This document shows, one piece after another, positions 514-6,029 of a stretch of DNA of 32,711 bases (within the stretch, counting starts at the first letter, position 1; every line of letters begins with the position of its first letter). A model generated the notes under the pieces. The model was not told where the DNA came from. It was given only the letters and a program-made list of their open reading frames with translations, and did not search any database. Origin of the DNA: Eubacteriales bacterium. Its GTDB lineage: Bacteria; Bacillota; Clostridia; Lachnospirales; Lachnospiraceae. The translations under genes were made by a program, and so were the position numbers. The DNA lies in the NCBI GenBank assembly GCA_030524785.1, contig JAUNFZ010000030.1:1-32711 (forward strand), written 5' to 3'.

Positions 514-744
514 ATGATATTTCTTGAAATCTATCTGATTGGTGCGGCGGTAACATTTTTAATTGTGCTATATTTGATTCAGAGAATGATGACGGACGAG
601 GATATGGATAAAATCAATCATGCGGGAGCGGAAACCGTGGGTATATCGGTGGCAATCGCATTGTTTCTTGGAATCTGCTGGCTTCCGTCTCTGGGAGCGC
701 TGCTCTGTTTCAAAATCGGAAAGCGCGGCGGCGGGAGAGAGTAG
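514..744 (+). CDS. small membrane protein of the integrated element
   Basis: A 76-residue protein that I do not recognise. A strong GGAGG lies 6 nt before the ATG. Two hydrophobic segments are visible, about residues 4-23 and 45-67, separated by a charged loop rich in D, E, K and N (TDEDMDKINHAG) and followed by a short basic tail (KIGKRGGGRE). This suggests a two-pass membrane protein. It is the last gene of the element: its stop codon lies only about 15 bp from the point where cotJC sequence begins. It might be a holin-like or other phage accessory protein, but nothing in the sequence settles this. Confidence 0.6.
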   Translation: MIFLEIYLIGAAVTFLIVLYLIQRMMTDEDMDKINHAGAETVGISVAIALFLGICWLPSLGALLCFKIGKRGGGRE

Positions 745-771
745 GAGGAAGCTGCGGTAAGGTCCTCCGTA
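745..771. other. element-chromosome junction (putative att site) inside cotJC
   Basis: To the right of about 760, the minus strand reads as the conserved CotJC start ending ...SQYGGP. To the left the reading frame continues as the antisense of the membrane-protein gene, with no resemblance to CotJC. The crossover therefore lies at or just beyond the GGAGGACCT codons (minus strand, about 760-768). The exact att core cannot be fixed because the other junction, which should carry the rest of cotJC, is outside the window to the left. Confidence 0.65.
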
Positions 772-855
772 TTGGCTCATAATAAATTGCGCCAGCTTTG
801 CGTTTGGAGTTTTAATATTGATAGGATATTCTAATCTTTTTTCATAGTTCCACAT
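760..855 (-). pseudogene. cotJC: cotJC 5' fragment (interrupted spore-coat Mn-catalase)
   Basis: Starting one base after the cotJB stop, with GGAGGA upstream inside cotJB, the frame encodes 32 residues that match the start of CotJC: MWNYEKRLEYPINIKTPN, then AKLAQFIMSQYGGP. CotJC is a manganese-catalase-like coat protein of about 190 residues. After Gly-Gly-Pro the family continues Asp-Gly-Glu, but here the frame runs into the end of a phage-like element and stays open only by chance to 568. The rest of the gene is missing from the window. This could be permanent inactivation, or a developmentally excised intervening element of the skin type. Confidence 0.8.
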
Positions 856-1284
856 TTATCTGCATCCTCCCTTCGTCATTGGCTCCCAGGGCCAGGGCTG
901 AGATACCCATTCCCAGCGCGTACTATCGGCTTCCACAGTACAGTCTGCGGTCAGCGGATAGAAGCGTCTCGCAAAAACGCTCATTGCCTCTTTGCGCTGT
1001 CGGGTCATTTTCTGATGGTAAGACAGAGCGCTGCTGTCGCAGGGATGCGTATCCAGATAGAGCATGGCATCATAGGCGGCAAAGCTCACTTCATTAATAA
1101 GATTGAATAACTGTGCCTGGCTCATGGATTCATAGGCTGAATCGCAAGCGCAGGGGCGATTCATAACGCGGCCCTCCGAAGAAAGAGGAAAAGCCGAAGC
1201 CGGCATGGATCCGGAGGGAGACGTTTGCGGGCAGGAGGCTGTACAGCCGCGCTGCATCTGATAATTTCTCGTCATCTGGTTCAT
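856..1284 (-). CDS. cotJB: spore coat protein CotJB
   Basis: The last 90 or so residues show the CotJB pattern: LFNLINEVSFAAYDAMLYLDTHP, then a charged helix, then FYPLTA and a tryptophan-rich end WEWVSQPWPWEP. CotJB is normally about 85-90 residues; this product is 142, with a Pro/Ser/Cys-rich N-terminal extension of about 50. The start at 1284 is chosen because its ATG overlaps the cotJA stop (ATGA) and AGAGGTGG lies 6 nt upstream; the next upstream ATG has no room for a ribosome-binding site. It is the second gene of cotJABC, expressed in the mother cell in relatives. CotJB acts with CotJC in the inner spore coat. Confidence 0.85.
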   Translation of the reverse strand: MNQMTRNYQMQRGCTASCPQTSPSGSMPASAFPLSSEGRVMNRPCACDSAYESMSQAQLFNLINEVSFAAYDAMLYLDTHPCDSSALSYHQKMTRQRKEAMSVFARRFYPLTADCTVEADSTRWEWVSQPWPWEPMTKGGCR

Positions 1285-1478
1285 GAACATCCACCTCTCT
1301 TTCCGCAGAAAGGTTTGCAGAGATCGGGAAAGATCGTTCCTGCGCGCAATGATGTGCACAGATCAAAGGTATTGGAAAACGCCGGCTGCCAGGGCACATA
1401 TGCCATTGCAAGCGACATGCCGGAAAGCGTGTCGCTGCGGCAGGGCGCGGAATTGGTCTCATATAATTGAGGATTCAT
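1281..1478 (-). CDS. cotJA: spore coat associated protein CotJA
   Basis: The 65-residue product carries the CotJA core LAMAYVPWQPAFSNTFDL, then SLRAGTIFPDLCKPFCG (family: ..YVP.Q.....Y....AL..GT.FP.L..PY). TAAGGAGC lies 5 nt before the ATG. It is the first gene of the cotJ operon and overlaps cotJB by 4 nt, suggesting translational coupling. The C-terminal end is Cys-rich (CKPFCGKRGGCS), as in many clostridial homologues. CotJA is needed in Bacillus subtilis to place CotJC in the coat. Confidence 0.82.
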   Translation of the reverse strand: MNPQLYETNSAPCRSDTLSGMSLAMAYVPWQPAFSNTFDLCTSLRAGTIFPDLCKPFCGKRGGCS

Positions 1479-1508
1479 AATAGCTCCTTAATTTTATTTT
1501 TCTATATC

Positions 1509-1516
1509 AGTTTATG
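1509..1516 (-). promoter_or_regulatory. possible sigma-E type -10 element for cotJABC
   Basis: The minus strand reads CATAAACT, one mismatch from the sigma-E -10 consensus CATACAnT, 31 nt before the cotJA start. No convincing -35 element is visible at the right spacing, so the call rests on this octamer and on the known mother-cell expression of cotJ in Bacillus. Confidence 0.25.
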
Positions 1517-1546
1517 AGGAGAAATAGAAAAGGTGTAAATTAAAGA

Positions 1547-1598: not shown

Positions 1599-2757
1599 AT
1601 GGCAGTTAAGAAAAAAAGAAGAATTGGCTGGCTGGCAGGGCGGACAAAAAGCGCGTTTCATTATTATGACTATAATCTGCTTGCCAGTATTATTTTATTG
1701 ACCTGCTTCGGCCTTGTCATGCTGTACAGTACGAGCGCATATTCTGCACAGGTTACATTTGGCGACGATATGTACTATTTTACAAAGCAGGCGGCGATTA
1801 GCGGCGTCAGCTTTATTTTAGTATTGATTTTCTCGCAGATCGACTATCACTATTATGCGAAATTTGCAGGCCTTATTTATTTCGCGGCAAATGTGCTTCT
1901 GTTTCTGACAAAATTTATCGGTACGGAGCTTAACGGAGCGAAGCGGTGGATCTACATAGGCGGGAGGATTTCTTTTCAGCCGGCGGAAATGGCGAAACTT
2001 GCCATTATTTTGTTTTTGCCGGTACTGATCTGCAAGATAGGAAAAAATGTAAAGACGAAAGGCGCTTTTTTTACAATTCTTGGATGCGGCGCACTGACGA
2101 CTGTACTGACATGGAAATTCACAGATAATCTGAGTACGGCCATTATTATCGCGGGGATTACGGTGGGGCTTCTTTTCATTGTATTTCCGAAAAAGACGCC
2201 CTTCATCGTTGGAGCGGTTCTTGTGGCAGTGCTGGCAGCGGGATTTATTATGTATGCCCAGACGCTGAGCGGCAGCGACAACTATCGAGTAAAGCGAGTG
2301 ATTGTCTGGCTGAACCCGGAGGGCAATGAAAGTCTGGGGGGTTATCAGGTAATGCAGGGGCTGTATGCGATTGGCTCCGGCGGATTGTTTGGCAAAGGGC
2401 TTGGCAACAGTCTCCAGAAATTGTCTTATGTGCCTGAGGCGCAAAATGATATGATTTTGACAATTATCTGTGAGGAACTGGGACTTTTTGGCGTGGTAAT
2501 GCTGTCGCTGTTGTTTGCGTTTATGCTGTATCGCCTGATGTTTATCGCCCAGAATGCGCCGGATTTGCTGGGCTCTTTGATTGCTTCTGGAGTTTTTATT
2601 CATATTGCTTTGCAGGTGGTGCTGAATATTGCCGTTGTCACCAACGCGATTCCGACGACAGGCATTACGCTGCCTTTTGTCAGTTATGGAGGCACATCTA
2701 TCCTGTTTTTGATGGCGGAAATGGCGCTGGCTCTCAGCGTATCGCGACAGATAAAAT

Positions 2758-2774
<17 letters not shown>
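1599..2774 (+). CDS. SEDS peptidoglycan polymerase (FtsW/RodA/SpoVE family)
   Basis: A 391-residue polytopic membrane protein with the SEDS hallmarks: GAKRWIYIG followed by SFQPAEMAKL in the first half, GGYQVMQGLYAIGSGGLFGKGLG, SYVPEAQNDMI with the conserved acidic residue and CEELG, and the C-terminal PTTGITLPFVSYGGTS block. About ten hydrophobic segments are present and the length is usual for FtsW/SpoVE. These proteins polymerise lipid II into glycan strands together with a class B PBP. Whether it is the division (FtsW), elongation (RodA) or sporulation (SpoVE) copy cannot be decided from one gene; the nearby cotJ operon is only weak support for SpoVE. Its 3' end overlaps the convergent trpS by 17 bp. 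Confidence 0.9.
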
Positions 2775-4411
<1,637 letters not shown>

Positions 4412-4433
4412 CAAATTCACTCCTCCCGACGTT

Positions 4434-4462
4434 AGTATATCACCTGATGTTACCGCTGTCAA
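4434..4462 (-). promoter_or_regulatory. promoter of the tetR-trpS unit
   Basis: Consensus TTGACA (4462-4457), 17-bp spacer, TATACT (4439-4434) on the minus strand, about 23 bp before the GTG start. The spacer holds a small dyad ATCA-GG-TGAT (4438-4447), a possible operator for the TetR protein. Confidence 0.65.
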
Positions 4463-4558
4463 CATTCGAACGGTATGATTGTTTAATACCATCCCTTTCT
4501 CACTTCTTCTCCCTTCCTGCATATATTGAACCTGACGAGTATTTTATGAGGTTTACCT

Positions 4559-5554
4559 ATGAAACGAAAACTGACCGCGCTTCTTTGCTCCTGCACTTTT
4601 ATGGCCACACTTTCGTGCGCCGCCGTCTGTGCCGAAAATGATTTACAGAAAGTAACTCTGAATGAAGTCGCCCACTCTATTTTTTATGCACCTCAGTACG
4701 TTGCCATAGAGCTTGGATATTTTGAGGACGAAGGCATTGATCTGGACCTTGTCTGCGGCTTCGGCGCCGACAAGGTGATGACCGCCGTTCTCTCAGGCGA
4801 TGCCCAAATTGGTTTTATGGGAAGTGAGGCCACTATTTACGCTTACAACGAAGGTGCAGCCGACTTTGTAGTAAACTTTGCACAGCTTACCCAGCGCGCC
4901 GGAAATTTCCTGGTGGCAAGGGAAGAAATGCCGGACTTTGAGTGGAGCAATCTGAAAGGCACAAAGGTACTGGGAGGGCGAAAAGGCGGTATGCCGGAAA
5001 TGGTATTTGAGTATATCCTAAAGCAGCACAACATCGATCCGTACGCAGACCTTACCATTGACCAGAGCATTGATTTTGGTTCCACTGCTGCTGCATTCGC
5101 CGGCGGTCAGGGAGACTTTACAGTTGAATTTGAGCCCTCCGCCACAGCTCTTGAAAGAGAAGGTGCAGGATTCGTTGTGGCTTCTCTTGGCGTCGATTCG
5201 GGTTATGTCCCCTATACGTCTTACAGTGCCAAATCCAGTTATATGGAAGAACATCCCGATATCATTCAGGGATTTACAAATGCCCTGCAAAAAGGCATGG
5301 AATATGTAAACACTCACACGCCGGAGGAAATTGCCACTGTTATCGCCCCACAGTTTCCGGACAGTGACCTGGAAACGATCACAGCAATTGTCACACGGTA
5401 TGCCAGCCAGGATACCTGGAAGGAAAATCTTGTGTTTGAGCAGGAAAGCTTTGATCTTTTACAGGATATTCTGGAGGAAGCCGGCGAACTCTCCCAGCGC
5501 GCCTCTTATCAAGATCTTGTAACTGTTGTTTACGCTCAATCTGCGATTAAGTAG
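4559..5554 (+). CDS. ABC transporter substrate-binding protein, NMT1/THI5-like
   Basis: A 331-residue exported protein. Residues 1-25 form a signal peptide (MKRKLTALLCSCTFMATLSC, then AAVCAEND). It contains a Cys, but the LxxC lipobox is not clear. The mature part has the NMT1/SsuA fold signature: HSIFYAPQYVAIELGYFEDEGI, then LDLVCGFGADKVMTAVLSGDAQIGFMG, and GRKGGMPEMVFEYILKQHNI. Relatives bind pyrimidine precursors of thiamine, sulfonates, riboflavin or similar. GAGGT lies 7 nt before the ATG. No permease or ATPase gene is adjacent, so it is an orphan binding protein here or its partners are elsewhere. The divergent TetR gene may regulate it. The substrate cannot be deduced. Confidence 0.82.
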   Translation: MKRKLTALLCSCTFMATLSCAAVCAENDLQKVTLNEVAHSIFYAPQYVAIELGYFEDEGIDLDLVCGFGADKVMTAVLSGDAQIGFMGSEATIYAYNEGAADFVVNFAQLTQRAGNFLVAREEMPDFEWSNLKGTKVLGGRKGGMPEMVFEYILKQHNIDPYADLTIDQSIDFGSTAAAFAGGQGDFTVEFEPSATALEREGAGFVVASLGVDSGYVPYTSYSAKSSYMEEHPDIIQGFTNALQKGMEYVNTHTPEEIATVIAPQFPDSDLETITAIVTRYASQDTWKENLVFEQESFDLLQDILEEAGELSQRASYQDLVTVVYAQSAIK

Positions 5555-5594
5555 TGCTCTGAAGCACCTCTATAAAGAAGTAATTTCATCCCTG

Positions 5595-5629
5595 CAGGGA
5601 CGGCATAGTAAAAATCTATGGCGTCCTGT
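5595..5629 (+). terminator. hairpin after the substrate-binding gene
   Basis: GGACGGCATAG (5598-5608), 7-nt AT loop, CTATGGCGTCC (5616-5626) pair except for one G-G mismatch, and the stem extends by CAG/CTG with one bulged G. Only TGTTT follows, so it is an imperfect intrinsic terminator or an mRNA-stabilising stem. Confidence 0.45.
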
Positions 5630-5645
5630 TTGGCATAATGCCATT

Positions 5646-5801
5646 ATGACAGATACATTACGATATTATGGCAAGCTGACGGCTGCTAATAACCGGATCT
5701 TGTATGTCGTTACCAGATGTGATAATATCAATATGTGCATCATAACGACATATTATCTGAACACAAAGAAATTTGAAAACAAAAAGACGAGGGAAATAAA
5801 T
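5646..5801 (+). pseudogene. remnant of a toxin gene (DUF4258-like C-terminus)
   Basis: In the same frame as the following YgiT gene and without a stop between them, this stretch encodes GKLTAANNRILYVVTRC, then IITTYYLNTKKFENKKTR. The tail resembles the end of DUF4258 toxins (RPLHVV... IITAY.P....W....R), which normally sit directly upstream of YgiT-type antitoxins. The N-terminal half of such a toxin is missing and the frame upstream runs through the hairpin and the end of the preceding gene. The family assignment is from pattern memory and is moderate at best. Confidence 0.4.
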
Positions 5802-6029
5802 ATGTGTATGATTTGCAAAAATACCTCTACGTTAGAAAGCACCACAACCCATGTGGTAAATTATAAAAATTGCGTGATTATCGTAAAAAATGTTCCGTGC
5901 CTTGAATGCGATCAGTGCGGTGAGAAGTATTATACCGATGAAGTCGCAGAAAAGTTGGAAATCATGGTGAATCTGGTAAAGAAGCTGATGCAGGAGATTG
6001 CTGTGATTGATTATCGGCAAGCGGCATAA
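5802..6029 (+). CDS. YgiT-type zinc-finger antitoxin protein
   Basis: A 75-residue protein with two CxxC knuckles, CMIC near the start and CDQC at about 37-40 (VPCLECDQCGEKYYTDEVAEKL), followed by an amphipathic helix. This is the N-terminal zinc-binding domain of MqsA/YgiT antitoxins, which lacks the HTH half in these short versions. AGGGA lies just upstream of the ATG. Such proteins usually neutralise a DUF4258, MqsR or BrnT-like toxin encoded just before them; here only a toxin remnant precedes it. It may be a solitary survivor of a decayed module. Confidence 0.78.
   Translation: MCMICKNTSTLESTTTHVVNYKNCVIIVKNVPCLECDQCGEKYYTDEVAEKLEIMVNLVKKLMQEIAVIDYRQAA

Follow-up and report, generated by a model that had tools for sequence, protein, structure and literature searches.

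Programmed reassembly of a split spore gene, directed at a new target, cotJC, and served by one or a few recombinase lineages for each cut site, looks to be common in the Lachnospiraceae. We consider it probable that the elements that split cotJC excise in the mother cell and restore the gene, in the manner of skin, SPbeta and gin; excision, its timing and cell type, and a working rebuilt protein are all things that we infer from genome sequence.

A split cotJC in the window and its genome

The window, the whole stretch of 32,711 nucleotides analysed here, begins at base 1 of contig C113, in a draft genome of 114 contigs (G000, contamination 3.7%), so the far end of the element that enters cotJC at this point is unreadable in the assembly. 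Its relevant features are as follows.

1281-1478, minus strand: cotJA (PF11007, E 1.5e-17)
856-1284, minus strand: cotJB (PF12652, E 6.2e-27)
757-855, minus strand: cotJC 5' piece as matched (PF05067 positions 1-32, E 2e-5, 24.2 bits)
760-855, minus strand: cotJC proper, codons 1-32, C-terminal Gln-Tyr-Gly-Gly-Pro
761-765, minus strand: GGACC core, one junction of the site-32 attachment site (GGNCC-type cores lie at both ends of relatives' site-32 elements)
739-760, minus strand: 22-base arm on the element side of the attachment site, TTACCGCAGC... (score 4.95 on a profile of 43 other site-32 arms)
1-760, no strand: end of the intervening element, its remainder past the contig end
77-463, plus strand: YopX-like phage gene inside the element (PF09643, E 6.4e-9, above cut-off)
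514-744, plus strand: 76-residue, hydrophobic-looking ORF inside the element, without family match
1508-1534, minus strand: AC-N16-CATAAACTG ahead of cotJA, a sigma-K-like promoter that departs from the consensus at one position

The preliminary description of this locus reported cotJA, cotJB and a cotJC start in sound order, and the Pfam matches bear this out, with the cotJC start adjoining the cotJB stop; the CotJC frame holds, as claimed, through codon 32, the last of Gly-Gly-Pro, which ends at window 760, and is lost beyond that point. The 5' piece falls below the PF05067 family cut-off of 27 because it is very short, and it also matches positions 1-33 of the CotJC profile A1 (E 4.4e-14). 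On the element side both predicted genes are present: the small ORF and the YopX-like gene, which also matches phrog_8684 and phrog_98 (families without known function) and is the only prophage-type gene visible in the window's element. The break is no chance event, the same codon being cut, with both sides seen, in 22 of 77 genomes. The 22-base window arm, at 4.95 bits, is equalled or bettered by 143 of 65,378 window 22-mers (p about 0.002); both the lower quartile of the other site-32 arms (8.05) and the 6.19 that one intact cotJC continuation scores on the same profile are higher.

A CotJC profile search of the window's genome returned four pieces, namely the window piece (1-33), one on contig C87 (1-34) and two on contig C109 (60-192 and 169-203). 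The first C109 piece, read by eye, is coding to about residue 176 and then passes into element DNA; TTCGGTGAA is common to both C109 pieces, which are spaced 6.8 kb apart, and the site-175 element carries a serine recombinase of 512 residues about 30 bases from the junction. An ftsW/rodA-type gene and a further stretch beside the window operon match DNA downstream of cotJC in genome G006 (75-77%), and the DNA past the C109 3' piece matches the G006 region upstream of cotJ (69-80%), which makes the window and C109 the two ends of one cotJC. Between the same flanks, the cotJ operon of G000 is inverted with respect to that of G006 (window 1599-6000 against L043 and L042; C109:4149-6211). The recombinase gene within which contig C109 ends has about 80% DNA identity to site-63 recombinases from other genomes, consistent with an element at site 63. 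Judged from these pieces, cotJC of the window's genome is cut at three sites: codon 32, residue about 60 and residue about 175.

The site-63 recombinase gene is itself split by an insert of about 8.3 kb (G000:C109:25830-34174; L035:7830-16174) that encodes two tandem serine recombinases and has GA at the cut. The insert resembles a transposon, and GA targeting is a property of Tn4451-type transposons. With its recombinase gene split in this way site 63 may be stuck in G000, the nested insert perhaps having disabled the element. Resolvase (PF00239), Recombinase (PF07508) and zinc-ribbon (PF13408) domains are all present in the four C109 recombinases scanned. The C109 cotJC piece gives pN values of 0.106-0.152 to genus mates, against 0.008-0.114 among four intact genes. 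The site-175 element (G000:C109:6596-11447; L034) also encodes a sensor kinase, a response regulator, an SH3-repeat protein and a PF13354 (Beta-lactamase2) protein, and four of its ORFs match no head or tail family in Pfam.

The same genome holds a second cotJ operon (G000:C87:2388-2489; L033) with cotJC cut at the same codon as in the window. Its arm scores 4.85 bits on the site-32 arm profile (p about 0.002), which again does not reach the lower quartile for other arms. The operon has no flanking DNA in common with the genus loci examined, and may represent a paralogue or another strain in the bin. Assignment of the C109 pieces to this operon was considered and rejected, as the flanks on C109 and in the window are those of a single locus. 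The C87 cotJB has a long, repeat-rich N-terminal part.

The preliminary description likened the window's element to skin and SPbeta, and proposed a search for a recombinase, a repeated core and the rest of cotJC at the far end. In relatives the parallel is well supported: their codon-32 elements have a serine recombinase beside one junction, a common core and the cotJC remainder (...GGPDGE) at the far end, and elements so built occur in G003 (3.7 kb), G006 (2.8 kb), Lacrimispora xylanisolvens ASCUSBR21 (2.8 kb) and Hungatella hathewayi WAL-18680. In the window's case the parallel lacks these parts, both the element's site-32 recombinase and cotJC residues 34-59 (by profile search of the contigs) being absent from the G000 assembly. 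The excision mechanism proposed in the preliminary description is likely for the family and unproven for the window's strain, in which one recombinase gene is also broken.

Cut sites and recombinases across the Lachnospiraceae

CotJC matches (E 0.01 or better) were found in 250 of 396 genomes of the same family. Of these, 77 were analysed piece by piece and checked for extra split copies: 74 selected from among the genomes whose best match was weak, and three that consist of a single contig. The cut is visible from both sides in 63 of the 77, at two or more sites in 16, and the two-sided cuts divide as 37 at site 63, 22 at site 32, 13 at site 136 and seven at site 175. This tally omits rows with E above 1e-6, the 14-32 row of G181 and a divergent 1-191 row of G266, and the 5' ranges of G298 and G328 were trimmed by hand of read-through. 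Fourteen of the 77 have no two-sided site; among them, G116 and G066 seem to reflect a contig end or a frameshift, and G259 paralogues. Cuts visible from one side only occur in 11 of the 77, including G165, where the cut is probably two-sided. Ends at four sites are seen in G388, and G051, from another family of the order, has three cut sites with both sides seen. In G265 and G308 a split copy lies alongside an intact one.

The same anatomy is found in the single-contig genomes G003, G265, G272, G304, G308 and G363 and in the complete-chromosome records of Blautia parvula NBRC 113351 and L. xylanisolvens ASCUSBR21. Where neighbouring pieces share a contig they are collinear and on one strand in all 51 pairs, from 43 genomes (for one pair, in G181, the match is a weak one of 19 residues), and the gaps run from 1,565 to 74,009 bases. 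Nine of the 51 gaps are under 4 kb, corresponding to small elements of 1.6-3.7 kb; the 39-kb element of G021 encodes portal, head, tape-measure and tail proteins. The sole control gene run, spoIVA (PF09547), gave more than one match in three of 260 genomes. SpoIVA is usual in sporulation; in the seven genomes of the window's genus that were searched it was matched only over its C-terminal half, in frames of about 260-290 amino acids (for example G003:C1:4290940-4291695 and G000:C85:42581-43345), and the PF09547 ATPase domain found no match in G000, G003 or G005.

The cuts fall at about residues 32, 63, 136 and 175 of cotJC, on or beside metal-ligand motifs. Aligned with the Lactobacillus plantarum catalase (1jku) and other Mn catalases, they lie on or beside E35, E65/H68, E136 and H170, the residues that correspond to the metal ligands of the L. 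plantarum enzyme. Comparison of 53 junction pairs in register, including site 175 of G000, revealed a common run of 2-14 bases at the cut or close to it; some pairs, including G298 and site 175 of G000, came out of register and were read by eye. By eye also, the arms of site-32 elements form an inverted repeat flanking the core, roughly TATAGGTTnnTGCAnTA-GGNGGNCC-TAnTGCAnnAACCTATA, and so resemble a serine-integrase attP, in which inverted arms surround a core.

Among 98 sequences scanned, 47 recombinase ORFs of at least 300 amino acids are found no more than 150 bases from a junction, and 45 of them read towards it. Short or broken recombinase ORFs are also seen (305 amino acids in G329, 384 in G298, 353 in G304, and fragments in G258), and in L213 and L042 ORFs of 70 and 73 amino acids, without family matches, adjoin the recombinase and are possible candidates for a directionality factor. 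In a quick tree of 66 recombinases, with long-branch warnings for L062, L035_9911 and L143, sites 32, 136 and 175 form one clade each and site 63 needs three changes, giving four site changes in all against 33.2 in shuffles. The tree takes in recombinases over 300 amino acids that lie up to 3.5 kb from a junction; L080 and L083 had their labels corrected by hand, genes from L034, L102, L117, L084 and L035 were added, and one ORF each from L054 and L036 was dropped.

A scan of an 84,980-species collection for site-32 recombinases found 79 loci, with a cotJC piece in 62 and none in 17. Leaving aside six that overlap loci fetched earlier, 73 are new and serve as a test of prediction: 56 hold a cotJC piece, 55 of them with a plain site-32 end. 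Strains represented are B. parvula NBRC 113351, L. xylanisolvens DSM 3808 and ASCUSBR21, Blautia schinkii DSM 10518, Blautia massiliensis GD8 and H. hathewayi WAL-18680 and DSM 13479, whilst locus L144 (Lachnospiraceae bacterium UBA7225) is a contig of G006, from the window's own genus. For the two recombinases tried, GenBank phages held only relatives under 60% identity, and cotJC pieces occur in 31 of 207 IMG/VR loci. A protein resembling the Spo0A DNA-binding domain is encoded near the split gene at three of 177 loci (L087:887-1222; L153:1676-2059; L221:3795-4319), that of L087 (PF08769, E 4.7e-31) lying inside a 1.6-kb element; such proteins could tie element activity to sporulation.

Selection, promoters and competing explanations

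Several comparisons point to continued selection on cotJC whilst it is split. Genomes G019 and G319 have a site-136 element common by descent, with 96% identity over 8.9 kb at one junction and 8.8 kb at the other, and over 167 codons their cotJC genes differ by 15 synonymous and no nonsynonymous changes (P 1.9e-10 if neutral). For G003 and G006, with a common site-32 element, dN is 0.067 and dS 1.42 (dN/dS 0.047); for G127 and G368, with a common site-63 junction, dN is 0.048 and dS 1.30 (dN/dS 0.037). These split-pair ratios (0.04-0.05) are higher than that of G001 and G007 (0.008), the sole usable intact pair, the other intact pairs being saturated. A stop within the counted range occurs in five of 194 distinct pieces, in each case in read-through into element DNA or at the junction. 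The ligand-aligned residues are kept in nearly all pieces (E35 in 50/51, E65 in 51/52, H68 in 51/52, E136 in 43/43, H170 in 54/55), and the odd rows look like read-through. The host gene thus appears to remain functional, taking purifying selection on its pieces as the measure, and selection on the pieces implies that the elements probably excise during spore formation and rebuild the gene.

Promoter patterns were sought with sigma-E and sigma-K consensus sequences. A strict sigma-K-like pattern lies upstream of cotJ in 42 of 90 regions from relatives, near-copies included, against 4.6 in shuffles; sigma-E patterns there are weak (14/90 against 11.5 and 12/90 against 7.0, again with near-copies). 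Upstream of the recombinases a sigma-E-like pattern, one among several patterns tried, was found for 41 of 136 against 74 of 1,349 other ORFs, often as GTATTTTTTATACCC-N-CATANNNT shortly before the start. By class the box precedes 34 of 93 recombinases for site 32 (a class that here includes 76, from loci L144-L222, placed by origin and not by tree), 6 of 22 for site 63, 0 of 10 for site 136, 1 of 8 for site 175 and 0 of 3 unassigned. The sigma-K pattern gave no signal before recombinases (3/136 against 26/1,349 other ORFs), and a sigma-A-like pattern was found before 1 of 136 against 90 of 1,349. A recombinase under sigma-E-like control early and a coat gene under sigma-K-like control late would be in the right order for restoration. 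Upstream of site-32 recombinases an inverted repeat, GGGTGTATTTTTTATACCC, which may be an operator or a terminator, overlaps the sigma-E-like box. Sigma factor genes of the sigma-E/sigma-K kind are uncut in the window's genus, although the sigma-K family cut-off is passed in only one of the nine genomes searched.

The explanation that we favour runs as follows. As the third gene of the cotJ spore-coat operon, cotJC would be a landing site for several kinds of gene-intervening element, each with a large serine recombinase specific to one site (after residue about 32, 63, 136 or 175). The gene would stay split in vegetative cells and in the future spore cell; in the mother cell, sporulation sigma factors would activate either the recombinase or its directionality factor, each element present would be cut out at the short core and the pieces would rejoin in frame, after which the cotJ operon, from its sigma-K-like promoter, would yield the whole Mn-catalase-like coat protein. 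We propose that this costs the host nothing, because the mother cell dies, and that a gene that can be rebuilt offers the element a safe site. Three excisions would be required in the window's genome, where one recombinase gene is interrupted. A bolder version makes cotJC a four-slot docking gene, occupied by independent recombinase lineages with one metal-ligand motif each, stacked up to four deep, removed at every sporulation in many Lachnospiraceae and nested in the window's genome, where one element sits in the recombinase gene of another and excision would need an order; this version we regard as evenly poised between right and wrong.

It could instead be that serine integrases simply target the most conserved DNA of cotJC and that the gene is lost, CotJC being dispensable or covered by another copy. 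The intact copies beside the split ones in G265 and G308, the one-sided cuts in 11 of 77 genomes (one of them, in G165, probably two-sided), the broken recombinase gene of the window's genome and the short recombinase ORFs of some small elements all suit such plain inactivation, but the pieces keep their frame and ligand-aligned residues, dN/dS is low while the gene is split (above all between G019 and G319), and several elements occupy one gene, each in an intact site; we think this reading unlikely. Decidedly unlikely, too, is that these are ordinary temperate phages or islands that excise on induction or by chance and restore cotJC incidentally, with no tie to sporulation. The structural genes of the 39-kb G021 element and the general lack of the sigma-E-like box before site-136 and site-175 recombinases would be expected of such phages, but not the persistence of elements of 1.6-3.7 kb, the box before 34 of 93 site-32-class recombinases or the purifying selection on the split gene.

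Two further readings are very hard to credit. That the pieces are translated separately and cooperate as a split protein, with no excision, would be in keeping with their often being open frames, but the later pieces lie kilobases from the cotJ promoter, some would supply only about 30 residues, and the piece ends look like recombination sites. An assembly or binning artefact is suggested by the fragmented, slightly contaminated window genome and by the C87 operon, cut yet sharing no flanks with the genus loci and perhaps from another strain; for the family it is refuted by the same anatomy in single-contig genomes and complete chromosomes.

Annotation may label a working coat enzyme as a pseudogene. 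Named strains make it possible to test the order of excision, recombinase cross-talk and the benefit to the host, and the cotJC junctions offer dozens of recombinase and attachment-site pairs.

Comparison with known gene-intervening elements

A literature search of open-licence PMC papers found no report linking cotJC to such elements; PMC11222575, considered as a prior report, was rejected, as the part of it at hand concerns a gene deleted beside a prophage. In spore formers the known targets of such reassembly, according to the available portions of PMC10747680 and PMC5595907, are sigK, spsM, spoVFB, gerE and yabG, each as a single target gene.

The closest parallel is gin, one element of 28.6 kb at one site in gerE of Bacillus cereus (PMC5595907, in the sections available to us). 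Like the cotJC elements, gin splits a mother-cell spore gene and involves serine recombinases and a short common core, phage genes being optional (PMC5595907, same sections). Gin excises at mid-sporulation (PMC5595907), whereas excision from cotJC is here inferred. The cotJC elements differ from gin as described in that partial text (PMC5595907) in having four sites and site-tied recombinase lineages, in occurring up to three to a gene with both sides seen (G051) or with ends at four sites (G388), and in spanning 1.6-74 kb.

Skin, in sigK, is likewise a serine-recombinase element in a late mother-cell gene (excerpts of PMC5025042 and PMC10747680). Skin controls a sigma factor and with it a cascade, whereas cotJC encodes a coat protein, so that timing would apply to a single product. 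In B. subtilis, SPbeta is a prophage in the spore-envelope gene spsM, comparable to the 39-kb G021 element in cotJC, although, as far as the portion of PMC4191935 consulted goes, it is one element at one site against the four sites of cotJC. The site-32 recombinases have their best PDB match in YokA, the SPbeta integrase. Yin, in yabG of Clostridium botulinum, is a prophage-like serine-recombinase element in a sporulation gene that is excised and circularised; in the part of PMC10747680 available it is reported as unique to one strain, whereas the cotJC elements are widespread.

For the stacking of elements the nearest likeness is with heterocyst-forming cyanobacteria, where, in the extract of PMC4874684 used here, several elements may lie in one gene and are removed in the differentiating cell. 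Multiple interruption elements are recorded there in 10 of 87 genes, with four in nifD of Rivularia (PMC4874684). The cyanobacterial elements occupy other hosts and other genes than cotJC (PMC4874684, same extract).
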